From Betaproteobacteria bacterium (GTDB lineage: Bacteria > Pseudomonadota > Gammaproteobacteria > Burkholderiales > Casimicrobiaceae), in contig JAAFJO010000005.1 of assembly GCA_013298145.1 (NCBI GenBank), positions 186,001 through 250,000 of the forward strand: a stretch of 64,000 nucleotides of DNA, read 5' to 3'. Below the pieces are notes generated by a model. The model saw only the letters and a list, made by a program, of their open reading frames with translations. It made no database searches and was not told where the DNA came from. The position numbers and the translations under genes were made by a program. Positions 4,484 to 42,791 of the stretch are shown here, in pieces (position 1 is the first letter of the stretch; each line of letters begins with the position of its first letter).

Positions 4484-4592
4484 CCTTCTCCCTTTGGGAG
4501 AAGGTGCTGCGAAGCAGCGGATGAGGGTGTAATGTTGAGCACGCGATTTCCCTCACCCGCGCCTGCGGCGCGACCTCTCCCAATGGGAGAGG
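4484..4592. repeat. Family A palindromic element, copy 1 (galD-ligJ intergenic)
   Basis: Two hairpins, CCTTCTCCC/GGGAGAAGG (4484-4504) and CCTCTCCC/GGGAGAGG (4574-4592), flank a core with GATGAGGGTG and, further on, ATTTCCCTCACCCG. It fills most of the 153-base gap between galD and ligJ on the transcribed strand. It has the same layout as the copies at 21365, 25813 and 26864. Confidence 0.85.
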
Positions 4593-4614
4593 CGCTCTGA
4601 ATGGTGGAGCGCAC

Positions 4615-5691
4615 CTAGCGACGGACATACACCTCACCGCGCATGATCAGCCGCGCTGTGCGCAGTAGCTCCGCCGAGACCACGCGGCTTTTATCGCTTG
4701 GATCGAGCGTGAAGTTCACGGTGAACTCGCCCGTTGGATGCTCGACCGAAATTGAGCGTCGGTGACCGTCGTTTTCAGCCGCGGGAGAGCAGATGCGCGC
4801 TGCGACGGTCCCTTCAAGCACGGCGGCGGTGGCGACTGAGACGGCACCCAACACGCCAATGCTCGCGTGGCAATCGTGCGGAATGAAAGTTCGCGTGCAG
4901 AGGCTGCCGCCCGCGCGAGGTGGGGCGACGAGGCTCACTTTTGGAACCACTTTTTTACTCACGTCACCCAGGCCCATCGCAGCGCCGGCTTTAAGTCGTA
5001 TGGACTCGATGCGGGCTTTCAGCGCAGCGTTCTTGTTGAGTTCATCGCGTGTCTCGTAGCCGGTGACGCCCGCATCAGTTGCGCTGAGGAGAATCACAGG
5101 CATCCCGTTATCGATACAAGTGACCGCAACGCCGTCGAACTGATCGATGCGATTGCCGGTCGGGAGCAGAGCGCCACATACGGAGCCTTCGGTGTCCAGA
5201 AAGCTAATGTTGACCGGCGATGCAGTTCCGGGAACGCCGTCGATTTTTGCTTCGCCCGCGTAGACCGGTTTTCCGTCGAGAAGTCTGACGGAAATGTCCG
5301 CCAGCGTTCCCGTGTTTTGGGTGTGCACGCGAAAAGTAGCGATTTCGCCTTTTGCAGAAACGAGCCCTGTCTCCAGTGCGAACGGCACCACAGCCGCAAG
5401 CATGTTGCCGCAATTCGGCGTGGTGTCGACGCGTGATTCGTGGATGAGAACTTGGGCAAAAAGAAAGTCGAGATCGACCCCGTCTCGTGCCGAACGAGAG
5501 ACGATGCCCACTTTGCTGGTTAAGGGATCCGCGCCGCCGAGCCCGTCAATTTGACGCGCGTCGGGCGAGCCCATCACGGCGAGCAAAACTCGATCACGTT
5601 CCGCGATAGCGCTCGGCAAATCGCTCGCACGAAAAAACGGCCCGCGTGAGGTGCCGCCGCGCATGAATAGACAAGGGATCGCGTGTTGCAT
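4615..5691 (-). CDS. galD: 4-oxalomesaconate tautomerase (PrpF/GalD family)
   Basis: 358 aa, PrpF-fold isomerase. GalD converts the keto form of 4-oxalomesaconate to the enol form used by the hydratase. Conserved features: the FMRGGTSRGPFF start, GLGGADPLTSKVGIV, the first cysteine in TTPNCGNM and a second in HDCHASIGVLGAV, consistent with the two-cysteine active site of this family. First gene of the operon, 89 bases from the divergent LysR gene and followed by ligJ after a repeat. Methylaconitate isomerase (PrpF) is the alternative, but no methylcitrate genes are present and LigJ/LigK follow. Confidence 0.88.
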   Translation of the reverse strand: MQHAIPCLFMRGGTSRGPFFRASDLPSAIAERDRVLLAVMGSPDARQIDGLGGADPLTSKVGIVSRSARDGVDLDFLFAQVLIHESRVDTTPNCGNMLAAVVPFALETGLVSAKGEIATFRVHTQNTGTLADISVRLLDGKPVYAGEAKIDGVPGTASPVNISFLDTEGSVCGALLPTGNRIDQFDGVAVTCIDNGMPVILLSATDAGVTGYETRDELNKNAALKARIESIRLKAGAAMGLGDVSKKVVPKVSLVAPPRAGGSLCTRTFIPHDCHASIGVLGAVSVATAAVLEGTVAARICSPAAENDGHRRSISVEHPTGEFTVNFTLDPSDKSRVVSAELLRTARLIMRGEVYVRR

Positions 5692-5780
5692 GCTCGCATT
5701 GTTGAGAGAGTGCAGCTATCCAGCAAGTCGATATATAAACTATCAGATATACCAAAATGCGATAGCTCGGAGCTCAGCAG
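5692..5780. promoter_or_regulatory. Divergent control region galD / lysR-type gene
   Basis: The 89-base gap holds CTATC at 5716-5720 and 5740-5744 and the inverse GATAG at 5761-5765, plus an AT-rich stretch (5731-5752) of the T-rich/A-rich kind bound by LysR proteins. CTATC (5740) and GATAG (5761) form an inverted pair. These are probable operator and promoter elements for both directions; the exact sites are inferred. Confidence 0.45.
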
Positions 5781-6677
5781 ATGGATATCAAACAACTTCA
5801 ATACTTCGTGCGAATTGCAGAGTTAGGCAGCGTGTCGCGCGCGGCCGACGCCTTAGCAGTCGCGCAGCCGGCGCTCAGTCGGCAGGTTCGCTTGCTAGAG
5901 GTTGAGCTCGGTGTCAGCGTATTCATTCGGCACGGGCGCGGCGTGCGGCTGACCGAATCGGGCAAAACGCTCTACGAACACGCGCTGGGTATCTTGCATC
6001 AGTGTGATCGTACGCGTGCACTAATGCAGCACACTTCGCACGAAGTGGCCGGTAAAGTTGCCGTGGGATTACCGCCAAGCTTGTGCAAGCTGCTCGCTGC
6101 ACCGTTGCTAAGCTCGCTCCAGCGAAGGCACCCGGGGATACGAGTTACAGTTCGCGAGGGGCTCTCGTCGCATTTAATGGAATGGCTCTTGGGCGGCTCG
6201 CTTGACTGCGCGCTCGTTTACAACGCGGTCGTTACGCCAGAAATCATTGCTAAGCCACTCGGGATTGAGCCTCGCTGGCTTGTGTCATCTAAGCTAAATA
6301 GCTTGCATCGGAAGCGACTCAATCTCGAAGCGCTGGCTGCATTGCCACTTATTTTGCCGTCTCGACCGCACGCAACGAGACTCAATGTGGATCGGGCGCT
6401 GGCGGACATCGGCAAGGTCGCGAACGTGGTTGCCGAAGTCGACGGTGTGCCCGCGATTCTCGAATTGGTGCGGGGCGGGTTCGGCCATGCGGTGCTGCCG
6501 CTGGCTGCGGTGAAAGCAAGCGGTAACGCAAGCGATTTCGTGACAACCGCCCTTTCCGGTCACGCGATCGAGAGCAAATTAAGTCTTGTTACCGCAGCTA
6601 GACGGCCTGAATCAAATGCGCAGCGGGCTGTGAGCGAAGAACTGAGTAATCTTGCTATAAAAGAAATATCTCAGTAA
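5781..6677 (+). CDS. LysR-family transcriptional regulator
   Basis: 298 aa. The N-terminal winged helix-turn-helix is clear (FVRIAELGSVSRAADALAV and QPALSRQVRLLEVELG), followed by the linker and the effector-binding domain with the GLPPSLCKLLAAPLL strand-helix. Divergent from galD, so it probably controls the aromatic catabolic operon in response to a pathway intermediate, as LysR regulators of gallate and protocatechuate operons do. The effector is not known. The downstream neighbour is tRNA-Cys on the other strand, with about 350 bases of apparently empty DNA between them. Confidence 0.92.
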   Translation: MDIKQLQYFVRIAELGSVSRAADALAVAQPALSRQVRLLEVELGVSVFIRHGRGVRLTESGKTLYEHALGILHQCDRTRALMQHTSHEVAGKVAVGLPPSLCKLLAAPLLSSLQRRHPGIRVTVREGLSSHLMEWLLGGSLDCALVYNAVVTPEIIAKPLGIEPRWLVSSKLNSLHRKRLNLEALAALPLILPSRPHATRLNVDRALADIGKVANVVAEVDGVPAILELVRGGFGHAVLPLAAVKASGNASDFVTTALSGHAIESKLSLVTAARRPESNAQRAVSEELSNLAIKEISQ

Positions 6678-7026
6678 GTCCTCAAAGATAGTTGGGAACG
6701 CAGGTAAAGCTGTGTTTCGCTTCCGGTCGCTAGGTGTCGCGGCGTCTCCGCCGTTCACTCCTCGGACGCGCAGGCACGGGCTGACAGTGTGCGAAACGCC
6801 GGGAAATACTCGTTGAACCGCTCCGAATGCAGCGCTGCATGACAGCCCAAGCGCGCGGAATGTGTGTAGAAAGACGCTGGAGCTACAAATGCGTGCGCTC
6901 CACAGCTCATGAAAAACGAGTTACGGATTCTCGAATCGCTCGGCGCAACGCGCGGCTTCCGGTTAGCTTTTCCGCATCTGGGCCGCATCTGCTGCATTGT
7001 GTAGCGAGCATGGAGCGAGGGGCGGG
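6678..7026. other. Gene-free stretch between lysR gene and tRNA-Cys
   Basis: No convincing gene on either strand; the short open frames here have no recognisable domain or ribosome site. It contains a perfect 14-bp palindrome, ATGCAGCGCTGCAT (6827-6840), of unknown role. Confidence 0.5.
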
Positions 7027-19262: not shown

Positions 19263-21356
19263 ATGACTACACGCTACGAAGTACGCGACGGTGTCGCAAT
19301 CCTCACGCTTGACAATGGGCCGGTTAACGGCCTTTCACACGCGGTTCGCTCTGCTTACGCTGAGGGGCTTGACAAGGCGAATGCAGATCCTGAGGTGAAG
19401 GTGATTGTGGTCACTGGCGCTGGCAGGGCGTTTTCGGGCGGTGCCGACATTAAAGAATTTGGATCTCCGAAAGCTCTGGCCGAGCCGAACTTGGGTTCGA
19501 TCATTCGCATGACGGAGATGAGCACGAAGCCGGTGATCGCTGCGATTCACACGGTGTGTATGGGAGGTGGCCTGGAGTTGGCGCTCGGCTGCCACTACCG
19601 CGTCGCGGCACCCGGTGCACAAATTGCGCTGCCCGAAGTGAAGCTCGGTTTAATTCCGGGCGCGGGCGGTACGGTGCGTTTGCCGCGTGTTTTGGGCGTC
19701 GAAGCGGCCACTTCGATGATCGTTTCTGGCGAGCCCGTACCAAGCGACATGCTCGCAATGGCGCCCGGCCAAAAACTGTTCGACAAACTCGTTCAAGGCG
19801 ATTTGCTTGAGGGCGCAGTAGCGTTCGCTAAAGAGAAAGCCGACGTGCGTCCACTGCCGCTCGTGCGCGATTTGAAGGTCGGGCATCCCGAAGCCGACGG
19901 CTACTTCCAATTCGCGCGAAACACCGCGAAGGCGATGGCGAAGAATTTCCCCGCGCCTGCGAAGTGCGTGGATGCTGTGCAAAACGCAACGAAGATGAAG
20001 TTCGACGATGCGCTCGCCGCGGAGCGCGAGATCTTCGTGAATTTGATGTTCACACCTGAATCAAAATCGTTGCGTCATTTGTTTTTCGCCGAACGGGCTG
20101 CGTCGAAGATCCCCGACGTAGGCGACGACGTGAAGCCGCGCGATATCAAGAAAGTCGGCATCATCGGTGCAGGTACGATGGGCGGCGGCATTGGCATGAA
20201 TTTCTTGAACGCGGGCATTCCGGTCATCATCCTTGAAATGAAGCAAGACGCGATCGATAAAGGCTTCGGCATCATTCGCGGCAATTACGAATCGCAAGTC
20301 AAAAAAGGCAAACTGAAACAAGACAAGCTTGATCAGCGCATGTCGATGCTTTCGTCGACGCTTTCCTACGACGATTTGAAAGATTGCGATCTCATCATCG
20401 AAGCGGTCTTTGAAGAAATCGGCGTTAAAGAAAAGGTGTTCAATGCGCTTGATGCAGTGGCGAAGCCAGGCGCGATCCTCGCGTCGAACACCTCGACGCT
20501 TGATGTGAACAAAATCGCAAGCTTCACGAAACGTCCGCAAGACGTGGTCGGCATGCACTTCTTCTCGCCTGCGAACGTGATGAAGCTGCTTGAGGTCGTT
20601 CGCGGTGAGAAGACCGCGAAAGATGTGCTCGCCACCGTGATGGCGGTTGCGAAAAAGATCAAGAAAGTCGCCGTCATCTCTGGCGTGTGCGATGGCTTCA
20701 TCGGTAACCGTATGATCGAGCAATACGGTCGTCAAGGCGGTTTCCTGCTTGATGAAGGTTGCACGCCGCAACAAGTTGATCGCGCCGTAGAAAAATTCGG
20801 CTTCGCGATGGGCCCGTTCCGCATGGGTGATCTCGCGGGTAACGACATCGGTTGGGCGATTCGCAAGCGTCGCTACACCGAGAAGCCGAATATGCGCTAT
20901 TCGAAGACGGCGGATTTGCTTTGTGAGCAAGGCCGCTTCGGTCAAAAAGTCAGTAAAGGTTGGTACGACTACGTGCCCGGTAAGCGCGATGCGATCCCCA
21001 ACGCAGACGTTGAAGCGATGATCGCCAAACATCGCGAAAGCCTTGGCATCACGCCGCGCAAAATTTCCGATGATGAAATCGTTCATCGCCTCGTGCTCTC
21101 GCTCGTCAACGAAGCCGCGCACATTTTGGAAGAGGGCATCGCGAATAAAGCAAGCGACATCGACATCGTCTACATCTACGGTTACGGCTTCCCACCGCAC
21201 CGTGGCGGCCCGATGAATTACGCGAATGAATTGGGTTTGTTCACCGTCGCGCAGATGATGAAGAAGTTCGCGCAGAATCCGCTCGATGATGCGAAGTTCT
21301 GGGAGCCCGCACCGCTCATTAAAAAGTTGATTGCGGAGGGAAAAAGCTTTAGCTAA
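19263..21356 (+). CDS. Bifunctional enoyl-CoA hydratase / 3-hydroxyacyl-CoA dehydrogenase
   Basis: 697 aa FadB/FadJ-type protein for the two middle steps of beta-oxidation. Residues 1-~190 are a crotonase domain with the oxyanion-hole segments GRAFSGGADIKEFG and CMGGGLELALG and the acidic PEVKLGLIPGAGGT. From ~295 a Rossmann domain begins (GIIGAGTMGGGIGM), with ASNTSTLDV and the catalytic His in VGMHFFSPANVM. The C-terminal dehydrogenase repeat includes GFIGNRM and YGYGFPPHRGGPMNYA. Its length is typical of the short betaproteobacterial form. A thiolase gene follows at 23133, after a repeat and an M20 gene. Confidence 0.93.
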   Translation: MTTRYEVRDGVAILTLDNGPVNGLSHAVRSAYAEGLDKANADPEVKVIVVTGAGRAFSGGADIKEFGSPKALAEPNLGSIIRMTEMSTKPVIAAIHTVCMGGGLELALGCHYRVAAPGAQIALPEVKLGLIPGAGGTVRLPRVLGVEAATSMIVSGEPVPSDMLAMAPGQKLFDKLVQGDLLEGAVAFAKEKADVRPLPLVRDLKVGHPEADGYFQFARNTAKAMAKNFPAPAKCVDAVQNATKMKFDDALAAEREIFVNLMFTPESKSLRHLFFAERAASKIPDVGDDVKPRDIKKVGIIGAGTMGGGIGMNFLNAGIPVIILEMKQDAIDKGFGIIRGNYESQVKKGKLKQDKLDQRMSMLSSTLSYDDLKDCDLIIEAVFEEIGVKEKVFNALDAVAKPGAILASNTSTLDVNKIASFTKRPQDVVGMHFFSPANVMKLLEVVRGEKTAKDVLATVMAVAKKIKKVAVISGVCDGFIGNRMIEQYGRQGGFLLDEGCTPQQVDRAVEKFGFAMGPFRMGDLAGNDIGWAIRKRRYTEKPNMRYSKTADLLCEQGRFGQKVSKGWYDYVPGKRDAIPNADVEAMIAKHRESLGITPRKISDDEIVHRLVLSLVNEAAHILEEGIANKASDIDIVYIYGYGFPPHRGGPMNYANELGLFTVAQMMKKFAQNPLDDAKFWEPAPLIKKLIAEGKSFS

Positions 21357-21364
21357 CGCAACGT

Positions 21365-21551
21365 CCCTCTCCCTCTGGGACCAGCCGCAGGCGCAGGACG
21401 CAACGAAGTTGCGGTCTCGACCGGAGGGAGAGATGAGCGTAAGCTCACAGAGGTCGCGCGCGAGCGCGAGCGCGGGTGAGGGTGAGATCGCCGTCGAGCT
21501 CGACACTTTTCCCTCACCGGCACGACGTGCCACCTCTCCCAAAGGGAGAGG
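21365..21551. repeat. Family A palindromic element, composite copy 2
   Basis: It starts with CCCTCTCCCTCTGGGA and ends with CCTCTCCCAAAGGGAGAGG. Between them are AGCGCGGGTGAGGG and, about 40 bases on, TTTTCCCTCACCGG. The 187-bp length and a second GGAGGGAGAGATGAG block suggest two elements merged or one inserted in another. It fills the gap between the FadB-like gene and the M20 peptidase gene. Confidence 0.85.
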
Positions 21552-21572
21552 AATTTCTTCGAGAAAACGACG

Positions 21573-23075
21573 ATGAAAATGGTAAAAAAAATCCTACTCG
21601 CGCTGATCGCACTGCTGCTCGCAGTCGTGATCGCCGTCGTCGCGAAGACCTTGCTCACGCCATCCAAGCAAATCAGCGTCCCGAAGATCACGCCGATCGC
21701 AGTTGACACCAACGCTGCCGCGTCGCGCTTAGGCGCGGCAGTGCGATTGCAGACGATCTCATCGTCGAGCGATCCCGAAGCGAATGCGGATGCATTCAAA
21801 GCGCTTCATGCACACCTGCAAGCGAGTTTTCCTAAGGTTCACGCGACGCTCAAGCGCGAGGCAATCGGCAACTATGGCTTGCTCTACACCTGGCAAGGCA
21901 CTGACAAAACCGCAAAACCGATCGCGATCTTCGCTCATCAAGACGTGGTACCAATCGCGCCGGGCACCGAAAAGGATTGGGCGCAACCGCCGTTTTCCGG
22001 TGCGATTGCCGATGGCTTTGTGTGGGGTCGAGGCGCGTGGGACAACAAAGGCAATTTGATGTCGCAAATGGAAGCGATTGAGACGTTGCTTGCGTCGGGT
22101 TTCACGCCTCGACAAACGGTCTACGTGTTCTTCGGGCACGACGAAGAAATCGGCGGATTGCGCGGCGCAAAGACCCTCGCAGAGCGCTGGAAGAAAGAGA
22201 GCGTGAAGCTCGACTTCGTTTTAGATGAGGGCACGCTCATCGTCGAAGGGATTCTGAAAGGCCTGGAAACGCCAGCCGCGTTAGTGGGCATGGCTGAGAA
22301 GGGCTATGTGACTGTGCTGCTCACGGCGAGCGCAACGCCCGGCCACTCGTCGATGCCGCCGCCATCGCCGCGCCAGAGCGCGATTGCAATGATGAGCGCT
22401 GCGCTCTCGCGGCTGGACGATCAGCAGTTCCCCGTGCAGATTCGCGGTCTCGCGCGCGATATGTTTGATACGTTGGCGCCTGAGATGACGCTCGTCAATC
22501 GCGTTGTGCTTTCCAATCTTTGGTTGACGAAACCCATCGTTGAATCGCAACTCGCGAAAAGCGCAAGCACGGCTGCGATGCTTCGCACCACCACTGCGCT
22601 CACGCAGTTAAACGCCGGTGTTCGCGACAACGTGTTACCCGGCAAAGCAGAGGCGTCGGTGAACTATCGCGTGTTGCCGGGCGATACGACCGAGCAGGTG
22701 GTGAAGCACACGCTGGCCGCATTTGGAGAGGGCGCGCCCGTAAGTGCCACAAAGAAGGAAGGCTATTCGGAGCCTTCAAAAATTTCGAGGATGGATGCGC
22801 CCGGTTACCACGCGATCGCGAAGACGATCCGCGGCCTGCATCCAACGATGGTCGTTGCACCGAGCTTGATGTTGGGCGGCACCGATGCTCGGCATTTTGA
22901 TGACGTCGCCGACAACGTGTATCGCTTTTCACCCGTGCGCGCGGGGCCCGATGATCTATCGCGTTTTCATGGCACGAATGAGCGGATTTCGCTTTCGAAC
23001 TACAGCGAGATGATCCAGTTCTATGCAGAGTTTTTGCGTGCCGCCGCCGGCCCAAGCAGTACGAAATCTCCTTAA
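21573..23075 (+). CDS. M20-family metallopeptidase, membrane-anchored or exported
   Basis: 500 aa, carboxypeptidase-S/PM20D1-like branch of M20. The N-terminus (residues 5-25, KILLALIALLLAVVIAVVAK) is a signal anchor or uncleaved signal peptide. Dizinc-site motifs: His in IFAHQDVVP, Asp in GRGAWDNKGN, Glu-Glu in GHDEEIGG, Asp in FVLDEG and a late His in GTDARHF. It hydrolyses peptides or N-acyl amino acids; the actual substrate is unknown. It lies between fad genes, which could fit N-acyl amino acid hydrolysis yielding fatty acids, but this is inference. A start at the second Met (21579) is equally possible. Confidence 0.9.
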   Translation: MKMVKKILLALIALLLAVVIAVVAKTLLTPSKQISVPKITPIAVDTNAAASRLGAAVRLQTISSSSDPEANADAFKALHAHLQASFPKVHATLKREAIGNYGLLYTWQGTDKTAKPIAIFAHQDVVPIAPGTEKDWAQPPFSGAIADGFVWGRGAWDNKGNLMSQMEAIETLLASGFTPRQTVYVFFGHDEEIGGLRGAKTLAERWKKESVKLDFVLDEGTLIVEGILKGLETPAALVGMAEKGYVTVLLTASATPGHSSMPPPSPRQSAIAMMSAALSRLDDQQFPVQIRGLARDMFDTLAPEMTLVNRVVLSNLWLTKPIVESQLAKSASTAAMLRTTTALTQLNAGVRDNVLPGKAEASVNYRVLPGDTTEQVVKHTLAAFGEGAPVSATKKEGYSEPSKISRMDAPGYHAIAKTIRGLHPTMVVAPSLMLGGTDARHFDDVADNVYRFSPVRAGPDDLSRFHGTNERISLSNYSEMIQFYAEFLRAAAGPSSTKSP

Positions 23076-23132
23076 CAACTTATTACTTACCCGCCCAGAT
23101 TAACTAGGGCAAGCAGACGAAAAGGTACTACT

Positions 23133-24308
23133 ATGACTGATGCCGTAATTGTTTCTACCGCCCGCACTCCGCTTTGCAAAAGCTGGAAAGGTGCGATGAA
23201 CATGACACATGGCGCAACGCTCGGCGGCCATGTCATTGAGCACGCCCTGAAGCGCGCTGGCATCGACGGCGGCGAAGTGGAAGACGTGATCATGGGTTGC
23301 GCAAACCCGGAAGGCGCGAACGGCTGGAACATCGCGCGTCAATCTGCGTTGCGAGCCGGGCTTCCGGTCACCGTGAGCGGCGTCACCGTGAACCGTTTTT
23401 GCTCATCGGGATTGCAAACCATCGCGATGGCCGCGCAACGCATCATCGCGGGCGAGGGCGATATCTACGTCGCGGGCGGACTCGAATCGATCTCGTGTGT
23501 GCAACAAGAAATGAACATGCACATGTTCAAAGAATCGTGGCTCGACAAAAACAAGCCAACGATTTACTGGAACATGATGCAGACGGCGGAAAACGTCGCC
23601 AAGCGCTACAACATCCCGCGTGAGCGCATGGATCGCTTCGGTGCGGAAAGCCAACAAAAAGCGTGCGCAGCAAAAGCCGCGGGCAAGTTCGCTGATGAAA
23701 TCGCGCCGATCACCGTCACCGCAGGTGTGGCTGACCCCAAGCTCGGCATGATGACGAAACAAGTCACCGTCGAACACGACGAAGGTTTGCGTGACGGCAC
23801 GACCTACGAAGCCATCAGCGGTTTGCGTACGGCCGTTCCCGGCGGCGTGATCTCCGCAGGTAACGCGTCGCAATTCAGCGATGGCGCAGGCGCATGCGTC
23901 GTGATGAATTCGAAAGTGGCGGAGCAGAAGGGCTTGAAGCCTCTCGGCATCTTCCGCGGCTTCGCGGTTGCGGGCTGTGAGCCGGATGAAATGGGCATCG
24001 GCCCCGTATTCGCCATTCCAAAAGTGCTCGCGCGCTTGGGCCTCAAAGTCTCTGACATCGATTTGTGGGAATTGAACGAAGCGTTCGCCGTTCAAGTGCT
24101 TTACTGCGCTGACAAACTCGGCATCCCGATGGACAAACTGAACGTGAACGGCGGCGCAATCGCTGTCGGTCACCCCTACGGCATGAGCGGTCAACGCCTC
24201 GTCGGCCACGCTCTCATCGAAGGCAAACGCCGCGGTGCGAAACTTGTTTGCGCGACGATGTGTATTGGTGGTGGGATGGGTGCTGCGGGTGTGTTTGAGG
24301 TGGTTTGA
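23133..24308 (+). CDS. Acetyl-CoA C-acyltransferase (thiolase)
   Basis: 391 aa, thiolase family, final step of beta-oxidation. The catalytic residues are visible: nucleophile Cys in NRFCSSGLQ, His in [14 protein letters not shown] and the second Cys in [11 protein letters not shown]. The [14 protein letters not shown] segment carries the NEAF motif. An AAAAGG ribosome site precedes the ATG. It is a FadA-type partner of the FadB-like protein, although the M20 gene lies between them. Confidence 0.94.
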
Positions 24309-24324
24309 TTTTCTACTGCGAGCC

Positions 24325-24424
24325 CGTGATGCATCGTTAAAAATCGTCTCGCGATCCTCATGTACGCACAAGTACACTCTGGTCGCTCGTCGACTTTTGC
24401 CTCGCCTGACGGGCTCTCGCTACG
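24325..24424. repeat. Imperfect hairpin repeat shared with the window start
   Basis: Two arms around TGTACGCACAAGTACA (left TCGTCTCGCGATCCTCATG, right ACTCTGGTCGCTCGTCGA) form an imperfect long hairpin. It is followed by CGCCTGACGGGCTCTCGCTACG, a near copy of bases 9-30 of this window. It lies 17-116 bases past the thiolase stop and may act as an mRNA end structure. Confidence 0.55.
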
Positions 24425-24446
24425 AAAACCAGAGCGTCGCTAGCCC

Positions 24447-24950
24447 ATGCTTAGACGAATGATCGAAAAAGTTGCGGAGTGGGATCATGTTCCACTTGGT
24501 AGGCTGCTTTGGATCAATTTCGCGATTGGCGCGCTCGTCGCATTCTCCAATGGCTTGGCTCTCGGTTTTGCCAAAGATCCACCAAACTTCGTCTATGTAA
24601 CCGTACCTCTCGGCCTACTGTTGGCATGCATGTCAATCTTCGGGATTCGCGCGAAACCAGTTATTCACAAGATTCTTAAAGTACAAACAGCGATACTACT
24701 GATCGTGCTGGTTGCGCTTCTTGCATTCACCTTTCAAATTGCAGTGTTCGGACTTCCGGCTGAAGCGAAACGCGTCTCGTGGAATCCGCTCATGTTCGTC
24801 TTTGTCTGTGCGTATCCTATTTACCTTGCTCGTCGAGTGTTTTTCGACATTCGTTCTAGCAACCTGCTCTTGCAGTATTCCCACGTACTGGCGATTTTGG
24901 TATCCATCCCCATTAGCGTCTACGTGATGTATTCTGTGGTGGGCTCGTAG
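24447..24950 (+). CDS. Hypothetical membrane protein, four or five segments
   Basis: 167 aa, no family recognised. Hydrophobic segments at about residues 21-42, 49-66, 76-100, 113-130 and 141-163 suggest a small integral membrane protein. Two near-start ATG codons (24447 and 24459) are possible; neither has a strong ribosome site. The TAG stop lies inside the family D repeat that follows. Codon use resembles that of the neighbours, with a somewhat lower GC content. Confidence 0.7.
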   Translation: MLRRMIEKVAEWDHVPLGRLLWINFAIGALVAFSNGLALGFAKDPPNFVYVTVPLGLLLACMSIFGIRAKPVIHKILKVQTAILLIVLVALLAFTFQIAVFGLPAEAKRVSWNPLMFVFVCAYPIYLARRVFFDIRSSNLLLQYSHVLAILVSIPISVYVMYSVVGS

Positions 24951-25081
24951 GGAGCGATCCTATCGCACCTCGTTCGATACGCGCGGAGCGCATTTCTCCG
25001 TTCACGCGTTGTTGGTATCAATTTGTGGTGCGATAGGATCGCACCCTACGGATTACGAGGCGCAATAAGATTGCGCCCTAC
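24946..25081. repeat. Family D inverted repeats (GCGATCCTATCGC type)
   Basis: The left arm 24946-24969 and right arm 25027-25050 are inverted copies of 24 bases with one mismatch, centred on GCGATCCTATCGC. A second small palindrome, GGCGCAATAAGATTGCGCC (25059-25077), follows and is again flanked by CCTAC. The left arm contains the TAG stop of the preceding gene, and the second palindrome ends six bases before the acyl-CoA dehydrogenase ATG. Confidence 0.85.
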
Positions 25082-25086
25082 ACAAC

Positions 25087-27117
25087 ATGCGCACCACGGT
25101 CGATTTTCTTCTTCACCACTGGCTCAAGGTTGACGAGCTAACTTCGCGACCTCGTTTTACCGACCATTCGCGGGAAACGTTTGCGGCCGTGCTTGATAAT
25201 GCCGAGCAAATCGCGGCGGACAAATATGCGCCGTTCAATCGCGCGGTGGATAACGAAGAGCCCCACACCGAAACGAACGTTGATGGCACGCTTCGCGTCG
25301 TGCTCCCGCGCGCGACACATGATGCGTGGAATGCGTACGCAGGCTCGGGCATGTTGGCGGCGGCGCAGGATTACGAGCATGGCGGCATGCAATTGCCCTA
25401 CGTCGTTGAGGCATCGGCGAACATGTTTTTTAGCCGCGCCTCGATCAGTATCTCGTGGGCGCTGCTGACGACCGGGAACGCGAACGCGATCATGGCGCAT
25501 GGTACGCAGGCGCAAAAGGAAGTGTTTGCGAAGAATGAATTCGCCGGGCGCTGGGCGGGGACGATGTGTCTTTCCGAGCCGCAGGCGGGTTCGTCGCTTT
25601 CCGACATTTCGACGCGCGCCGTGCTCGATGATGAAAACGACGCGCTCGGTCCGCGCTATCGGCTGTTCGGCAACAAGATGTGGATCTCGGGCGGCGAGCA
25701 TGATGTGACGGAGAATATCGTGCACTTGGTGCTTGCGAAGATTCCGGACGCGGATGGAAAGTTGATTCCTGGGACGCGGGGGATTTCGCTGTTCATTGTG
25801 CCGAAGTTTTTGCCTCTCCCTTTGGGAGAGGTCGCGCGCAGCGCGGGTGAGGGAAAAACAACGACTGATGAGAAGCAGACTACCGATTTCCCTCACCGTC
25901 ACTACGTGCCACCTCTCCCAGAGGGAGAGGGATCAACCCGCAACGACGTCGTCCTCGCCGGCTTGAATCACAAACTCGGCTGGCGCGGCACGCCGAACAC
26001 CTTGCTCAACTTTGGTGAAGGCAAGTTCAAGCCGCTCGGCAAAGCGGGCGCGGTGGGTTATCTCGTTGGCAAACCGGGCGATGGCTTGCGCTGCATGTTT
26101 CACATGATGAACGAAGCGCGGATCGGCATTGGCCTCGCAGCGACGATGCTCGGGATGGCGGGGTACGAAGCGTCGTTGCAGTATGCGAAGGATCGTAAGC
26201 AGGGAAGACCGGTCACAGGTGATGGTAAAGATTCATCGAAGCCGCCCGTTGCGTTGATCGAACATGCTGACATCAAACGCATGCTCCTCGCGCAGAAATC
26301 GTATTGCGAAGGCGCGACGGCGTTGTTGCTTTACTGTGCGAAGCTCGTCGACGAAACGCATACCGGCTCGCCTGATTCTGCAGCAGAAGCGAAGCTCTTG
26401 CTCGAAGTGTTAACGCCGATTGCGAAGAGCTGGCCCAGTGAAAACTGCCTCGAAGCAAATTCACTCGCGATTCAAATTCACGGTGGCTACGGCTACACGC
26501 GCGATTTTCCCGTCGAGCAATACTGGCGCGATAACCGCTTGAACATGATTCACGAAGGCACGCACGGTATTCAAGCGATGGATTTGCTGGGGCGGAAAGT
26601 GGTGATGGAGGGCGGCAAGGGGCTCATGCTGCTTGCAACCAAGATCAACGAGACGATTCAACGCGCGATGAACGCGCCCAGCGGGCAGCAAAACGCCGAA
26701 CTCGCTGATCACGCCCACGCGCTCGCTCGCGCGTTGCAGAGCGTGGGCGCGGCCACGAAAGCGGCGTGGTCAACCGGCAATCCGAATGAGGCGCTCGCGA
26801 ATGCGGTGCCGTATATGCAGGCGTTTGGGCATTTGGTGTTGGCTTGGGTTTGGTTGGATGTCTCCCTCTCCCTTTGGGAGAGGTCGCGCGTTAGCGCGGG
26901 TGAGGGAAACGCGAACTCAAGACATGCCGCAGGCGTCGATTTCCCTCACCCGCCCTTTGGGCACCCTCTCCCAGAGGGAGAGGGAAAATTCCGCGAAGGC
27001 AAACTCGCCGCGTGCAACTATTTCTTCCGCTACGAATTGCCCAAGATTGACGGCTGGCTCGCCCCGGTGAAATCGCGTGACATGACTTGCGCGAATGTTT
27101 CTGTTGACGCGTTGTAG
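25087..27117 (+). CDS. Acyl-CoA dehydrogenase carrying two in-frame palindromic inserts
   Basis: 676 aa flavoenzyme of the long acyl-CoA dehydrogenase group (about 595 aa, with an extra C-terminal domain; DmdC-like proteins belong here). FAD/substrate motifs: MCLSEPQAGSSLSDI, KMWISGGEHD, IHGGYGYTRDFPVEQYWRDN and the catalytic-region NMIHEGTHGIQ. Two segments match nothing in the family: about residues 243-282 (LPLPLGEVARSAGEG to LPEGEG) and 593-632 (SLSLWERSRVSAGEG to LPEGEG). They are exactly the translations of the repeats at 25813-25931 and 26864-26984. Removing them gives ~596 aa, the family length. The stop TAG lies in the family B repeat. Confidence 0.92.
   Translation: MRTTVDFLLHHWLKVDELTSRPRFTDHSRETFAAVLDNAEQIAADKYAPFNRAVDNEEPHTETNVDGTLRVVLPRATHDAWNAYAGSGMLAAAQDYEHGGMQLPYVVEASANMFFSRASISISWALLTTGNANAIMAHGTQAQKEVFAKNEFAGRWAGTMCLSEPQAGSSLSDISTRAVLDDENDALGPRYRLFGNKMWISGGEHDVTENIVHLVLAKIPDADGKLIPGTRGISLFIVPKFLPLPLGEVARSAGEGKTTTDEKQTTDFPHRHYVPPLPEGEGSTRNDVVLAGLNHKLGWRGTPNTLLNFGEGKFKPLGKAGAVGYLVGKPGDGLRCMFHMMNEARIGIGLAATMLGMAGYEASLQYAKDRKQGRPVTGDGKDSSKPPVALIEHADIKRMLLAQKSYCEGATALLLYCAKLVDETHTGSPDSAAEAKLLLEVLTPIAKSWPSENCLEANSLAIQIHGGYGYTRDFPVEQYWRDNRLNMIHEGTHGIQAMDLLGRKVVMEGGKGLMLLATKINETIQRAMNAPSGQQNAELADHAHALARALQSVGAATKAAWSTGNPNEALANAVPYMQAFGHLVLAWVWLDVSLSLWERSRVSAGEGNANSRHAAGVDFPHPPFGHPLPEGEGKFREGKLAACNYFFRYELPKIDGWLAPVKSRDMTCANVSVDAL
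25813..25931. repeat. Family A palindromic element, copy 3, in frame inside the acyl-CoA dehydrogenase gene
   Basis: 119 bp: hairpin CCTCTCCCTTTGGGAGAGG, then AGCGCGGGTGAGGGAAA, a variable middle, TTTCCCTCACCG and the closing hairpin CCTCTCCCAGAGGGAGAGGG. It is read in frame without a stop between VPKF and RNDV of the enzyme, which is a loop position in the family. Confidence 0.92.
26864..26984. repeat. Family A palindromic element, copy 4, in frame inside the acyl-CoA dehydrogenase gene
   Basis: 121 bp with the same plan as copy 3 but a different variable middle, and GGGCACCCTCTCCCAGAGGG at the right. It is read in frame between WVWLDVS and REGKLAACNYFF. The left arm is read in another frame than in copy 3; the right arm is read in the same frame. 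Confidence 0.92.
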
Positions 27118-27206
27118 GCGCGGGCTTGACCGCGCTTTCGCAGCCTACGAATTCGCTTTATTCGAGGTGTTCATTGTCCTGAGCGCGGTCAAGCCCGCGC
27201 CTACAA
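27112..27206. repeat. Family B inverted repeat, copy 1 (gives the acyl-CoA dehydrogenase stop codon)
   Basis: Perfect 25-bp inverted arms at 27112-27136 and 27182-27206, starting TTGTAGGCGCGGGCTTGACC, with a 45-base middle. The TAG at 27115-27117 is the stop codon of the upstream gene. The stem could also serve as a terminator structure. Confidence 0.9.
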
Positions 27207-27494
27207 TCGGTTGATGGATTCGAATATCAAAGGAGCGAGCTTGCGAATCTTGATTTCTGCGGACGCTAGTTAGCGTTCCTCGCTTTGCCGCATCATTTGT
27301 GGAGTGGGATCGTCGTGATCGTGTTCGCGGTGTGCGCTGGGGCGGCAATCGTAATCAGGTTTATCTGCGGTTAGCTTCGGCGGTGATCGCCCTAAAGAGA
27401 TAGGGCCAGGATCGGTTTTACAGCGTTTTCAAGAATAATTTTTCTATCAAGCACGCCCCAATAAAACGGTGCGTTGCGTTAAGGAGTTAATTAA
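27207..27494. other. Gene-free leader region of the SDR gene
   Basis: No gene seen; short open frames here lack domains. The last 20 bases contain the ribosome site TTAAGGAG, seven bases or so before the ATG at 27495, and the AT-rich AAGAATAATTTTTCTATC stretch may hold the promoter -10 region. Confidence 0.45.
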
Positions 27495-28286
27495 ATGTCT
27501 GCACGTCACACAGCGAAGCTTTTCGACCTCACCGGCAAACGCGCGCTCATCACTGGCGGCTCACGTGGGCTCGGCCTGCAAATGGCGCATGCGCTCGGCG
27601 AAGCGGGTGCGTCGGTCGTGATCTCTGCGCGTAAGCAAAGCGAACTCGACGAGGCGGTGAAAGAGCTTACGGCGGCTGGCATCAAAGCGAGCGCGATTGC
27701 CGCCGACTGCGGCACGACCGAAGGCGCGCAAGGGCTTGCCAAAGCCGCGCTCGAAGGCGGCCCGATCGACATCCTCGTGAACAATGCAGGTGCGAGCTGG
27801 GGCGCGCCGCTTGAAGATCATCCGGTCGAGGCGTACGACAAGATCATGAACTTGAATGTGCGCGGCATTTTCGTGCTCACGCAAGCGATTGGTAAAGCCT
27901 GTTTTATTCCGCGCAAATCGGGTGCCGTCATCAACGTTGCCTCAATCGCCGGTATCGCGGCAAATCCGCCGTACATGAAAACTGCGGCGTACAACACGTC
28001 AAAGGCCGCAGTGATCAACCTCACGCGTGCGATGGCGAGCGAGTGGGGCGCCTATGGCATTCGCGCGAACGCGATTTGCCCTGGCTTCTTTCCGAGCAAG
28101 ATGACGGCGGGTTTGATCTCTGCGGTGGGCGAAGAAAAAATGGCGAGCGCCGCGCCCTTGAATCGTCTCGGCGACGATGAGGATCTGAAGGGCATCACGC
28201 TGCTATTCGCCAGTGACGCAGGTAAACATATTACCGGGCAATGGATCGCAGTCGACGGCGGTGTGTCCGCGATTTTGGGAGGCTGA
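27495..28286 (+). CDS. SDR-family oxidoreductase (3-oxoacyl-ACP/CoA reductase-like)
   Basis: 263 aa classical short-chain dehydrogenase/reductase. Motifs: TGGSRGLG (nucleotide binding), NNAGASWG, catalytic Ser in NVASIAG and YNTSK (YxxxK), then ICPGFFPSKMT. The dinucleotide preference is probably NADP by the Arg after GGS. A strong TTAAGGAG site precedes it. A small VOC gene follows three bases later and is probably co-transcribed. Such SDRs near acyl-CoA dehydrogenases often reduce or oxidise hydroxyacyl intermediates; the substrate is unknown. Confidence 0.92.
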   Translation: MSARHTAKLFDLTGKRALITGGSRGLGLQMAHALGEAGASVVISARKQSELDEAVKELTAAGIKASAIAADCGTTEGAQGLAKAALEGGPIDILVNNAGASWGAPLEDHPVEAYDKIMNLNVRGIFVLTQAIGKACFIPRKSGAVINVASIAGIAANPPYMKTAAYNTSKAAVINLTRAMASEWGAYGIRANAICPGFFPSKMTAGLISAVGEEKMASAAPLNRLGDDEDLKGITLLFASDAGKHITGQWIAVDGGVSAILGG

Positions 28287-28289
28287 TCG

Positions 28290-28688
28290 ATGTATTCCTA
28301 TGCCACTCTCGGATCAAACGATATCAAGTCATCGAAGGCGTTCTACGATGCTGTATTTGCGCCGCTCAACATTGTTTGCCGCTATTCGTACGACGACGCA
28401 CTCGCGTACGGACTTGCCGAATCGAAAGTGCCCGGACTTTGGATCGTACCGCCGTTTGATAAGCGCGCCGCAAGCGTTGGCAATGGTGCGATGCTTGCCT
28501 TTGATGCGCCGAGTGTGGACGCAGTGAATGGGTTTTACGCTGCAGCGCTCGCACACGGTGGCAGCGATGAAGGCGCGCCCGGTTATCGCGAACACTATTC
28601 GCCAGATTTTTACGCGGCGTATGTGCGTGATCCGCTTGGGAATAAGCTGTGTGCGGTGTTTCGGGATCCGTCGCGGGCGGTGAAGTAA
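28290..28688 (+). CDS. VOC-family (glyoxalase-like) protein
   Basis: 132 aa, one VOC domain: starts MYSYATLGSNDIKSSKAFYDAVF and has the late YAAYVRDPLGNKLCAVF strand. The metal-site His/Glu pattern is incomplete: position one is Thr/Leu rather than His and the end is NKLCAVF, so it may not bind metal in the glyoxalase I way. GGGAGG lies seven bases before the ATG. It follows the SDR gene after three bases, so an accessory role in the same pathway is likely but undefined. Confidence 0.85.
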   Translation: MYSYATLGSNDIKSSKAFYDAVFAPLNIVCRYSYDDALAYGLAESKVPGLWIVPPFDKRAASVGNGAMLAFDAPSVDAVNGFYAAALAHGGSDEGAPGYREHYSPDFYAAYVRDPLGNKLCAVFRDPSRAVK

Positions 28689-28728
28689 TCTGCGACAAAC
28701 GCGTGTTCGACGCCGATGGAGAAGTAGC

Positions 28729-29010
28729 GTGCTGAATCGAGGCAGAATTTCGGAATGGTGGCGCCGCCCGCTGACAGCTCAAGAGGTGAGCTACGCGGGA
28801 GTTCTCGGGCTTCTCGGAGGGTTTTGGATTTCGTTGCTGGCTGCAGTGTTCTTGCTGGGGCACGTTAACAAATTTGTTCCGGTGGACGGATTTGTTGTGG
28901 TGCTTTTCGGAGTCATCGGAGCTTTTGTCGGCAGGTTGATCGGACGTCGTTGGCCAAAAATCTCCAAAATTGTGTTCTTACCCTTTGCATTTTTCGGATT
29001 CACTTCGTAA
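28729..29010 (+). CDS. Small hypothetical membrane protein
   Basis: 93 aa, GTG start at 28729 with GGAGAAG eight or so bases upstream. Two hydrophobic segments (about residues 22-43 and 51-67) followed by a basic stretch GRLIGRRWPK and a third short hydrophobic end. No family recognised. It lies between two oxidoreductase genes in the same direction. Confidence 0.6.
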   Translation: MLNRGRISEWWRRPLTAQEVSYAGVLGLLGGFWISLLAAVFLLGHVNKFVPVDGFVVVLFGVIGAFVGRLIGRRWPKISKIVFLPFAFFGFTS

Positions 29011-29039
29011 CTGTTTTAAGAGTGACAAGAAAACATCAC

Positions 29040-29930
29040 ATGAAAAAAACCTTAGTCATCACCGGTGCTGCCTCCGGTTTCGGTCTTGAATTCGCGCGGC
29101 TCGGCGCGGCGCGTGGCGACAACATCGTGATGTGCGATGTTGAACAGACTGCGCTTGATGCGGCCCGTGACGAGATCGCCGCGTTGGGTGTGCAAGTTCA
29201 CGCGGCTCGCGTCGATGTATCAAGCGCAGAGGCAATGGACGCGCTGGCGGCGGACGTGAAAGCGAAATTCGGTGCACCGCATTGGGTATTCAACAATGCA
29301 GGTGTCGGCTCCGGCGGCCTCGTGTGGGAGAACACGCTCAAGGATTGGAATTGGGTCTGGAACGTGAACGTGATGGGCGTCGTGCACGGCGTGCGCGCGT
29401 TCACGCCGATGATGCTCGAAGCTGCGAAGGCTGATCCGAACTATCGCGGCTGCCACATCAACACGGCCTCCATGGCTGGCTTGCTCAACGCGCCCACCAT
29501 GGGCGTGTACAACGTGTCGAAACATGCGGTAGTTTCGCTCACGGAATCGCTGTACCACGACCTAAAACTGGTTTCCGATCAAGTGACTGCGGCACTGCTC
29601 TGTCCGTTCTTCGTACCTACGGGAATTTCGAAATCACATCGGAATCGCCCTGAGGATTTGAAGAATGATGCGAAGCCCACGCTGTCGCAAATGGTTGCGC
29701 AGATGCAGAGTGACAAAGCGGTGAGTTCCGGCAAGATCACCGCTGCAGATGTTGCCAAGCGCGTGTTCGAAGCGGTGGAAGCGGGCGAGTTCTACATCTA
29801 CTCGCATCCGCAAGCGCTGAAGAGCGTCGAAGTTCGCATGCGCGACATCGTGGATCAAAAGAATCCGACCGATCCGTTTGCGGACAAACCGGAGATCAGC
29901 GCGTGGCTCAAAGAGAAGTTGCGCGGGTAG
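29040..29930 (+). CDS. SDR-family oxidoreductase
   Basis: 296 aa from the ATG at 29040; a longer frame from 28950 would run through the preceding gene and adds nothing SDR-like. Motifs: TGAASGFG, VFNNAGVGSGG, catalytic Ser in NTASMAG and Tyr/Lys in YNVSKHAV, then LLCPFFVPTGI. The C-terminal tail includes VFEAVEAGEFYIYSHP, seen in SDRs annotated as short-chain alcohol or hydroxy-steroid-like dehydrogenases. Substrate unknown. Confidence 0.9.
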   Translation: MKKTLVITGAASGFGLEFARLGAARGDNIVMCDVEQTALDAARDEIAALGVQVHAARVDVSSAEAMDALAADVKAKFGAPHWVFNNAGVGSGGLVWENTLKDWNWVWNVNVMGVVHGVRAFTPMMLEAAKADPNYRGCHINTASMAGLLNAPTMGVYNVSKHAVVSLTESLYHDLKLVSDQVTAALLCPFFVPTGISKSHRNRPEDLKNDAKPTLSQMVAQMQSDKAVSSGKITAADVAKRVFEAVEAGEFYIYSHPQALKSVEVRMRDIVDQKNPTDPFADKPEISAWLKEKLRG

Positions 29931-29940
29931 GTGCGGAACC

Positions 29941-30017
29941 CGTAGGCGACTCCCGGCGGAGGCCGGGATTGACGTCGCTTGTTTGCGACGAAAGCGCGGT
30001 CAAGCCCGCGCCTACAA
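29941..30017. repeat. Family B repeat, partial copy 2
   Basis: The right arm AGCGCGGTCAAGCCCGCGCC plus TACAA (29993-30017) is identical to the right arm of copy 1. The left side is a different hairpin, GTAGGCGACTCCCGG/CCGGGATTGACGTCGC, which resembles the block at 52174-52210. It lies downstream of the SDR stop. Confidence 0.8.
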
Positions 30018-40402: not shown

Positions 40403-40451
40403 TTTTTTCTCGCGAGTTGCGAGAGTGTTTTGAATTTCAAGAGTTCGCTCG

Positions 40452-42791
40452 ATGATCAACGTAGAAATCGACGGCAAAGCAGTTCAGGTTCCACCGGGCT
40501 CCACGGTGATGGATGCGGCTACGCAGGTAGGCGCATACGTTCCTCATTTTTGCTATCACAAGAAACTCTCGATCGCGGCGAACTGCCGCATGTGCCTCGT
40601 ACAGGTTGAAAAAGCGCCGAAACCGTTACCCGCTTGCGCCACGCCTGTGACAGAGGGCATGAAAGTGTTCACCGCGAGCGACTACGCGAAAAAAGCGCAG
40701 CAATCGGTGATGGAGTTTTTGTTAATCAACCACCCGCTTGATTGCCCCATCTGCGATCAAGGCGGCGAATGTCAGCTGCAAGATTTAGCCGTGGGCTACG
40801 GCAAGTCGGAATCGCGCTACAAGGAAGAAAAGCGCGTTGTGTTCGTGAAGAACATCGGCCCCCTTGTCTCAGCAGAAGAAATGAGCCGTTGCATTCAGTG
40901 CACGCGCTGTGTTCGCTTCGGTCAGGAAGTCGCTGGCATCATGGAGCTCGGCATGGGCGGCCGTGGCGAGCATTCGGAGATTCTTTCGTTCGTAGGCAAA
41001 AGCGTCGATAGCGAACTTTCGGGCAACATGATTGATGTGTGCCCCGTCGGCGCGCTCACCTCGAAGCCATTCCGCTACAGCGCACGTACTTGGGAATTGC
41101 AGCGTCGTAAGAGCGTGAGCCCGCATGATGGTTTGAACGCAAACCTGCAGGTGCAGGTGAAGGGTGATCGCGTGATGCGCGTGTTGCCGCTTGAAAACGA
41201 AGCGGTAAACGAGTGCTGGATTTCTGATCGTGATCGCTTCAGCTACGAAGGTTTGTATGCCGAAGATCGCGTGACATCGCCGATGGTGAAGGTTCACGGC
41301 GAATGGCAACAAGCCTCATGGCAAGACGCGTTGATCGCTGCAGCCGAAGCCATCGCCTCGAACGCCAAGCAAAATGGCAACGACGTCGCGATGTTGGTTG
41401 GACCCCACAGCACGTTGGAAGAGTCGTATCTCGCCGCGCAAATCGCGAAGGCCATCGGCTCGGGTTCGATTGATCACCGCCTTCGCGTTTCAGACGCGGC
41501 GCTCGACAAAGGCGGCGGGATTCCGTGGCTCGGCCGCAAGCTCACTGACTTCGCGAGTGTTGATCGATTCTTGGTGATCGGATCGAATTTGCGTCAGGAG
41601 CAACCGCTCGTCGCGAGCCGCATCCGCCAGCGCCTCAAGAAAGGTGCAACGCTTTCGGTAGTGAATCCAACTGACGATGACTTGCTGTGCCCCGTTGCAG
41701 CAAAATCAATCGTTAAGCCATCGCAGATACGCGATGCACTGGCTGCCATCGCGCAGTCGCTGGCGAAGCGTCTCGACAAGACAACTTCTCTTGCCAATGC
41801 CCAGGTTTATTCGGGCAGCGAAGAAGTTGCAGCGAATCTTGCTACAGGAAAAAACGTCGCTGTTGTCGTTGGCGAAATGGCCGTTTCCCACCAAGAGGCG
41901 TCGCAAATCGAAGCGCTTGCGGCGAAGATAGCTGAGCTCGTCGGTGGCACGCTCGGTCGACTCTCAGCTTCAGGCGCAACGACTGCGGCATACGCCGCAG
42001 GTGCGATGCCGTCGGCAAACGGCAAGACCGCTCACACGGCGCTCACAAACGGCAGCAAGGCCTTCGTGTTGATCGGTTGCGAGCCTGAACTCGACAGCGC
42101 TGCAGGCGCGCAAGCGGTTGCCTCGCTTAAAGCGGCAGATAAAGTTGTTGCGCTCACTGCATTTGCATCGAGCACGATGAAGGATTACGCCGACGTGATC
42201 CTCCCGATCGCGCCGTTTACCGAGACGTCGGGTACCTACATTTCGCAAGATGGCACAGCGCAATCCTTCACAGGCGTGGCACGACCGCTCGGCGAGACGC
42301 GACCCGGCTGGAAGGTGCTGCGTGTTCTTGGTGATTTGTTGCACGCCAATGTGGGCGCGTTCAATTCATCGGACGACGTGAAGAAAGCCGCGCTCGCAAC
42401 CTTTAGCGATGCATCGCTCGGCGCGAAAGCGGCCGTGATCCAGAACCCTCACCCGCCCTCCGGGCACCCTCTCCCAGAGGGAGAGGGCACGTTGGAGCGC
42501 GTGGCTGATTTGCCGATCTACAGCGCCGATCCGATCGTGCGTCGCGCCAGATCATTGCAACTCTCCGCGCACGGCAAGCAAGCGCGTGTGCGGATGAATG
42601 CTGAGACTGCGAAGCGCGTTGGCGTAACGCACGGTGCGCCGGTTCGAGTAGAGCAGGGCGGAACAGCGGTGGTTGCAACGCTCGCGATTGACTCGACGGT
42701 TGTTACCGGCGCGGTTCGTGTGCCGTTCGCAACCGAAGTATCGGCGGCACTGGGCGCTTCAACCGGCGAGATCAAAGTGAGCGCGGTATGA
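40452..42791 (+). CDS. nuoG: NADH-quinone oxidoreductase subunit G, with a repeat-derived insert
   Basis: 779 aa. N-terminal ferredoxin-like cysteines in [16 protein letters not shown], then [18 protein letters not shown] and the [16 protein letters not shown] and DVCPVGAL cluster sites, followed by a long molybdopterin-oxidoreductase-like domain. Near residue 665-679 the chain reads [15 protein letters not shown], the translation of a partial family A repeat (42446-42487). This is unlike other NuoG sequences and sits before the C-terminal VRRARSLQ region. The reading frame is intact, so the insert appears tolerated in an essential-type respiratory subunit. Confidence 0.96.
42446..42487. repeat. 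Family A palindromic element, partial copy 5, in frame inside nuoG
   Basis: 42 bp, right half of the element: CCCTCACCCGCCCTCCGGGC then ACCCTCTCCCAGAGGGAGAGGG. It adds 14 codons read as [14 protein letters not shown], the same frame as the right arm of copies 3 and 4. Confidence 0.92.

Follow-up and report, generated by a model that had tools for sequence, protein, structure and literature searches.

The acyl-CoA dehydrogenase gene at positions 25087-27117 (forward strand) of the window analysed here, a 64,000-nucleotide stretch (G000:C17:186001-250000) of a betaproteobacterial genome (4.13 Mb, 99% complete, 21 contigs), carries two palindromic repeats that are translated in frame. Judged from their sequence, these repeats are of the TM type (intrastrand triplex motif) known from Escherichia coli, and the first of them, a repeat of 119 bp, is in our estimation rather probably a non-autonomous derivative of a mobile element with TM ends and a DUF559 gene. 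In the manner of a miniature inverted-repeat transposable element (MITE), it has its ends in common with a longer, gene-bearing form, as TM units occur on both sides of DUF559 genes and full and short forms were found at one and the same site. The initial annotation of the window, which reported the repeat at 25813-25931 in an open frame within this enzyme and attributed the DNA to a probable betaproteobacterium, was borne out on each of these points; absent from it were the different frames in which the left arms of the two copies are read and the other inserts that relatives carry at the same site.

Copy 1 (25813-25931, forward strand) is an inverted TM-type dimer read as PLPLGEVARSAGEGKTTTDEKQTTDFPHRHYVPPLPEGEG. 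Its left arm (25813-25853, forward strand) consists of a CCTCTCCC-N3-GGGAGAGG palindrome, an inner GC hairpin and GGGTGAGGG, and its right arm (25890-25931, reverse strand) is inverted. Both arms contain a palindromic core and an inner hairpin together with GGGTGAGGG or CCCTCACC, and a 36-nt spacer separates them. Copy 2 (26864-26984, forward strand), also an inverted TM-type dimer, is located near the C-terminus of the dehydrogenase; its left arm is read as LSLWERSRVSAGEG, in a frame different from that of the left arm of copy 1, and its right arm as 14 residues. Each arm of both copies was shown to contain a core of this palindromic type and GGGTGAGGG or its complement, with the inner hairpin present in most arms. 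As their second loop is expanded, both copies fall outside the strict TM consensus (CCCTCNCCC-N3-6-GGGNGAGGG-N3-GGGNGAGGG) and are for this reason referred to as TM-type.

With up to three mismatches allowed on both strands, the core palindrome was matched 13 times, at nine places in the window, compared with none expected from 100 shuffles, and CTCTCCCNNNGGGAGAG (up to two mismatches) was matched 74 times in the genome, compared with six matches for the reversed pattern. Folding of single-stranded DNA yielded z-scores of -8.5 for copy 1 (120-nt stretch) and -9.0 for copy 2. Comparison of window positions 20000-30000 with Rfam returned six matches up to an E-value of 1, all under the gathering score, those on the left arms being to whalefall-1 (E-values of 0.058 and 0.66).

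The MnmG protein of the source genome (846 aa) was found to contain a whole DUF559 domain (588-695) between TM units, and the association between DUF559 and TM was tested for this reason by counting strict TM hairpins (CCTCNCCC-N2-7-GGGNGAGG) within 300 bp of DUF559 loci. Among the 29 DUF559 loci of the genus set (the source genome, G000, and 30 relatives), 14 had a hairpin on both sides, four on one side and 11 on neither, with 38 hairpins in the 17.3 kb near DUF559 versus four in 62.4 kb far from it. In a draw of genomes from the class, 47 of 143 have DUF559; the best-scoring 29 loci of a longer list, from 29 genomes, were distributed as 11 (both sides), eight (one side) and 10 (none), with 39 hairpins in 17.4 kb near DUF559 versus eight in 63.5 kb far from it. 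Pooled, a hairpin stands beside 37 of 58 DUF559 loci (both sides, 25; one side, 12). No TM hairpin was detected at any of 30 Y1-transposase (RAYT family) control loci from the source genome and its relatives, examined to a distance of 1.5 kb or as far as the contig reached, nor at any of 30 GIY-YIG control loci, many of which are long UvrC-like open reading frames (ORFs), making this control partly a housekeeping one. Outside the genus, DUF559 with TM hairpins on both sides was also observed within two long ORFs (L276 of G175 and L288 of G081), the former of which presumably encodes a DNA methyltransferase, judging by eye from a motif.

Whole TM-DUF559-TM units were shown to lie in frame within MnmG (source genome and G006), LipB (G003 and G010), a hydantoinase A/B fusion (G013 and G003) and a protein of G016 whose C-terminal part matches HODM. 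In DnaG, the unit is located in the C-terminal part, behind the recognised domains (G011, G004 and G001; L236, L237 and L238); the G001 ORF is cut by the contig end, and the G004 locus has strict hairpins on the left only.

Full, short and empty states of individual sites were identified within the genus. At the MnmG turn, for which 11 same-genus loci were compared, the full element is present in G000 and G006, short TM-type dimers in G010, G001 and G011, a single hairpin in G007 (whose match holds an internal stop codon) and no insert in G003 and G008; outside the genus, two of six loci were parsed, both free of an insert. At the LipB turn (15 same-genus loci), DUF559 is present in G003, G010 and G005, the G005 locus being cut by the contig end and having no strict hairpin. 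No insert of any kind was seen at 11 loci, and G014, for which one of two LipB loci was read, carries a short TM-like palindrome recognised by eye outside the strict pattern. Between the source genome and G006, the ratio of nonsynonymous to synonymous substitution rates (dN/dS) is 0.032 for the MnmG-embedded DUF559, 0.031 and 0.11 for the N and C parts of MnmG, and 0.36 and 0.49 for the TM-coded linkers, these ratios being rough since dS values of 1-2 are near saturation. This comparison shows purifying selection to be strong on the embedded DUF559 domain and not on the TM-encoded linkers.

In the mechanism that we propose, the full form would consist of a DUF559 gene, encoding a Vsr-like PD-(D/E)XK nuclease, between two inverted TM ends. 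The nuclease would move TM units, and short forms would arise from full ones through loss of the gene. Copies would land in many places, those within genes surviving if they hit a turn or linker and keep the frame; the passenger peptide of a surviving copy would simply be translated, and the resulting loops would be tolerated rather than used. The chain that leads from association to mobility is one that we infer from sequence comparison. More tentatively, TM palindromes might well be the ends of a widespread, hitherto unrecognised mobile element whose gene product is a Vsr-like DUF559 nuclease, a transposase being absent. In its full form, the element would enter essential proteins in frame (MnmG, LipB and the C-terminal part of DnaG), and these would thereby possess a functional nuclease domain maintained by purifying selection; its gene-less form would account for many short palindromes, including the dehydrogenase loops and the unexplained TM repeats of E. 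coli. If so, proteins would have a route to gain domains and loops without splicing, by way of a nuclease travelling between such palindromes and embedded in frame in tRNA-modifying, lipoylation or primase proteins. The sites with full, short and empty states make the proposed element directly testable.

The insertion of copy 1 into the dehydrogenase (site 1) was examined in an alignment with 16 homologues belonging to the same genus or order and a further 13 outside homologues. The initial annotation had placed about 40 residues between VPKF and RNDV, at a loop position of an otherwise normal enzyme. The insertion is indeed located there, at what is a turn in orthologues, and the 676-aa product of the ORF matches the Pfam domains Acyl-CoA_dh_N, _M and _1, and PF12806. 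However, the VPKF-to-RNDV span is 43 residues (VPK to RND, 44 residues in G000 versus 11-12 in repeat-free forms), and the net gain is about 32 residues and not 40, because about eight native turn residues (of the type DTNGELTGE) are gone. Its estimate of about 596 aa for the protein without both repeats proved slightly low, as five same-genus orthologues free of either insert (G007, G012, G008, G013 and G016) align over 606-612 aa.

Forms of the VPKxLVDTNGELTGERNDV type, without an insert, were observed in G009, G001, G007, G012, G008, G013 and G016. Among the 13 outside homologues, 11 likewise show them, all but L071 and L037, the latter with a tandem repeat at this turn; the best solved relative (6ijc) reads VPKFLVKEDGSLGERNGV in this stretch. 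Conversely, TM-type inserts of differing sequence occupy the same turn in seven same-genus genomes (G006, G010, G014, G004, G015, G011 and G003). Variovorax paradoxus ISL-81 also carries a TM insert here, and those of G010, G014, G003, G015 and Variovorax match the published TM consensus by eye. The initial annotation had held that the same segment in unrelated genera would count against a repeat insertion; the outcome is mixed, as the Variovorax insert sits at the same turn but is a different, single-unit one, and for this reason the comparison favours repeated insertion at one site over an ancestral segment of the protein. A pattern scan of site 1 matched 89 of 98 loci, of which 80 have 10-11 residues and nine are longer (two of these, L031 and G011, being one genome). 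The nine missed loci include those of the source genome and G006, which were read otherwise, and the outside homologues L041, L056, L058 and L109, which were left out.

In the gene tree, the insert state requires seven changes, at least six of which are forced by well-supported branches; the insert label includes the tandem repeat of L037, and L125 and L128 were dropped as fragments. Genomes with a site 1 insert also contain more TM hairpins (53-249 in eight genomes) than those without (3, 4, 9, 20, 25, 43 and 203 in seven; Mann-Whitney p 0.007), G002 and G005, in which no site 1 was located, being left out of this comparison.

What is conserved in these inserts is the DNA palindrome, with the encoded peptide riding along. 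Between the source genome and G006, third codon positions differ at 4 of 30 sites in the arms compared with 198 of 548 in the flanks (Fisher p 0.010), whereas codon positions 1 and 2 show no difference (5 of 60 versus 70 of 1096; p 0.59). Of the 11 spacer codons, 5 differ at the third position and 8 in the encoded residue. The dN/dS of the dehydrogenase insert is 0.57 (dS 0.35). In the N and middle parts of the protein it is 0.07-0.08 (dS 0.92 and 0.77), and the final 36 codons have a value of 0.115. Within the source genome, translation of the left arm gives PLPLGE or TLPLGE in dehydrogenase copy 1, guaA and recG, LSLWER or LSLGER in dehydrogenase copy 2 and gcvP, and SPSGRG in mnmG and thyA.

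Other in-frame copies, for which the initial annotation had suggested a search, were found within the source genome. Among the 32 core-palindrome clusters read (out of at least 74 genomic cores, worn copies beyond these being unread), 10 are read in frame, inside eight conserved genes and in all three frames. Their hosts are GcvP, MnmG (two clusters), a LysE-type carrier, GuaA, ThyA, RecG, NuoG and the dehydrogenase (two clusters). This count required family support on both sides of a cluster; the clusters left uncounted belong to ORFs lacking that support, fall at the start or end of a gene, or are not covered by an ORF of 120 aa. In ThyA, QFYVS-PSPSGRGRDEVAGEGKAPKA-RLSCQL corresponds to QFYVADGKLSCQL in E. 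coli, and in GuaA, RNTPVVLPLPLGEAAARAAGEGSASSPQSWYD corresponds to RNTTDENGTSWYD; alignment to the solved ThyA and GuaA, respectively, showed that the extra residues are those of the repeat. In the window, a single TM-type unit (42446-42487, forward strand) is read as 14 residues in nuoG (ORF 40434-42788). Excluded from the in-frame count were two TM-type cores near an ORF end, probably a worn inverted dimer (4484-4593), a single unit at overlapping ORF starts (21507-21552) and a single unit at a gene boundary (53679-53726). Elsewhere in the genome, four TM cores stand in a row (L163, 2974-3206), in a stretch not covered by any ORF of 120 aa or longer.

Several observations weigh against a DUF559-driven mobile element. 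No movement has been observed, and a comparison by eye of junctions with empty orthologues revealed no clear target-site duplication, native turn residues having been lost. The MnmG turn also holds long in-frame palindromes of non-TM families (G004, G005 and G009; L248, L253 and L264), so a permissive loop accounts for part of the recurrence there, and the dN/dS ratios are rough, as mentioned above. The genus-set loci are partly orthologous, with MnmG, LipB and hydantoinase counted twice each and DnaG three times, so that the 58 DUF559 loci lack independence and some of the association stems from orthologous copies. Moreover, 21 of the 58 DUF559 loci lack a strict-pattern hairpin, a pattern that may undercount, given that the hit-free genus loci L213, L215, L224 and L226 encode PHPSP- or PSPPQPSP-like tails. 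The sole DUF559 detected in the source genome at an E-value of 0.001 is the one inside MnmG, so the mover would either work in fused form or have disappeared. No DUF559 was found in G014 (an 80% complete genome), which has 249 TM hairpins, or in G009 and G002, which have 25 and 13, and G001, with 203 TM hairpins, is without a site 1 insert, although it has TM at site 2. In E. coli K-12, ycjD has a single TM repeat (no. 9 in PMC4666352) on just one of its sides, at a distance of 168 bp, which makes for a weak association.

Nor are the frames of the repeat more open than those of shuffles. The open frame that the initial annotation had considered worthy of mention turned out to be unexceptional, as three of the six frames of copy 1 are open compared with a shuffle mean of 2.0 (p 0.28), and six-frame openness as a special adaptation was rejected because shuffles are equally open for all eight dimers tested. 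A search for an empty site in E. coli was likewise abandoned, since the one examined strain without the short fabI-ycjD interval has an efflux locus beside fabI and hence offers no empty site; another strain examined carries ycjD.

The main rival to a mobile element is a non-mobile role of DUF559 at TM sequences. TM dimers would then spread without a dedicated mover, through template switching and local rearrangement induced by the hairpin or triplex sequence and through homogenisation by gene conversion, and DUF559 would be kept nearby since the nuclease acts on TM. We consider this rather unlikely, though it finds support in the link between TM loci and genome instability drawn in the available part of Holder et al. 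2015 (PMC4666352), where the TM repeats of E. coli are described without association to transposons, phages or plasmids. It would also fit the arms being conserved at third codon positions and not beyond the flanks at positions 1 and 2, and the recurrence of the hairpin variant of the G004 and G010 inserts elsewhere in the same genome (among the hairpins listed). In contrast, TM hairpins flank DUF559 on both sides at similar distances, and whole TM-DUF559-TM units in unrelated hosts, together with the full, short and empty site states, look like an element with ends.

The inverted hairpin pair has the size of a REPIN, and the repeat could in principle be moved by the RAYT transposase of the genome, as GTAG repetitive extragenic palindromes (REPs) are. 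The genome does contain one Y1-transposase gene, and in-frame GTAG REPs are on record (PMC3733652). That gene is, however, flanked by GTAG-type repeats and not by TM, and with no TM hairpin at any of the 30 Y1-transposase loci, a RAYT as TM mover is disfavoured and this explanation appears improbable. Even less probable is that the inserted peptide serves the enzyme as a functional module and is retained through selection at the protein level. Several relatives do retain an insert at the site 1 turn, but its sequence varies among them, seven same-genus orthologues lack it, its dN/dS is far above that of the N and middle parts, and elsewhere in the source genome the repeat is translated in other frames, three in all. 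Furthermore, the AlphaFold model, of low overall confidence (built from 24 sequences; mean pLDDT, the predicted local distance difference test, 68.9), has pLDDT below 50 at residues 246-281 and low confidence also at 608-627. Least credible of all is an artefact, either mis-assembly or a decaying gene. Although the assembly is in 21 contigs, the ORF is uninterrupted across both copies, and the active-site segment MIHEGTHGIQ, whose Glu we take to be the catalytic base, is invariant or almost so in 24 aligned sequences. The presence of the same insert in G006, where it has diverged, makes the sequencing or assembly error that the initial annotation had raised as an objection very unlikely. The flanks are under purifying selection. 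The derivation of the repeat from an element with TM ends and a DUF559 gene is the reading that we favour.

Repeats of other families surround the dehydrogenase gene. Directly upstream, at 24948-25082, lies a GTAG-type inverted pair of the same type as the repeats around the sole detected Y1-transposase gene of the genome (L141), and the stop codon (TTGTAGG) comes from a further GTAG-type pair at 27112-27206; in the G006 orthologue, a repeat with a similar beginning is translated in frame at the second site of insertion. GIY-YIG genes are located directly upstream of the dehydrogenase in three relatives (L112 1143-1497 of G006, G009:C151:1227-1442 and G010:C11:11982-12747), that of G006 being flanked by inverted GTTCGACGGGCTCACCACGAAC-like repeats, possibly another pairing of a nuclease with palindromes. 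The L037 match (5001-6935) derives from a metagenome-assembled genome labelled Cytophagales, yet its dehydrogenase groups with betaproteobacterial ones, and the label may be wrong.

Inteins with homing endonucleases place a nuclease domain in frame inside an essential protein. The present arrangement is alike in this respect, but differs in that Pfam scans of nine DUF559 host ORFs matched no Hint/splicing (intein-type) domain. The likeness to Rickettsia palindromic elements put forward in the initial annotation holds by analogy, drawn without sequence comparison, in that short palindromes are read in frame in unrelated genes; it does not extend to identity, since the repeat is of the TM type, uses three frames and encodes no conserved peptide. 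Rickettsia palindromic elements and MITEs are both treated in PMC10969869. As portrayed in the available part of that source, bacterial MITEs resemble the repeat in having inverted ends, a short length, many copies and a probable movement in trans, but here the candidate partner is a Vsr-like nuclease rather than a transposase, and no target duplication was seen. Outside Rickettsia, in-frame palindromes of other repeat families have been on record since 2013 (PMC3733652). The GTAG/CGTC REPs described in the accessible part of that report likewise occur as in-frame repeats or dimers in many proteins, with double insertions in one gene, and two Xanthomonas carry them in recB at roughly the same position, comparable to the site recurrence seen here; GTAG REPs are a different family that goes with tyrosine transposases, whereas TM has no such partner in the loci read.

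The closest counterpart is TM_ECO of E. coli, with which the repeat shares a core of CCCTCNCCC..GGGNGAGGG..GGGNGAGGG, inverted pairs about 100 bp apart and many copies per genome (PMC4666352). In contrast to TM_ECO, which the available text of PMC4666352 gives as always intergenic in MG1655 and free of mobile-element association there, the repeat is often in frame within genes, and the second loop of the dehydrogenase copies, at about 12-13 nt, exceeds the 3 nt of TM_ECO. That text describes no nuclease partner of TM_ECO, whereas DUF559 is a candidate here; in the open-access literature, judged mostly by title and the start of the abstract, no paper joining DUF559 with TM repeats was found. 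DUF559/YcjD is a PD-(D/E)XK nuclease (PMC1189080, PMC12907096), and the embedded domain is of this Vsr-like type. Such nucleases are presented in the parts of these sources at hand as separate proteins without a link to repeats, whereas here the domain is embedded within other proteins, between TM units.
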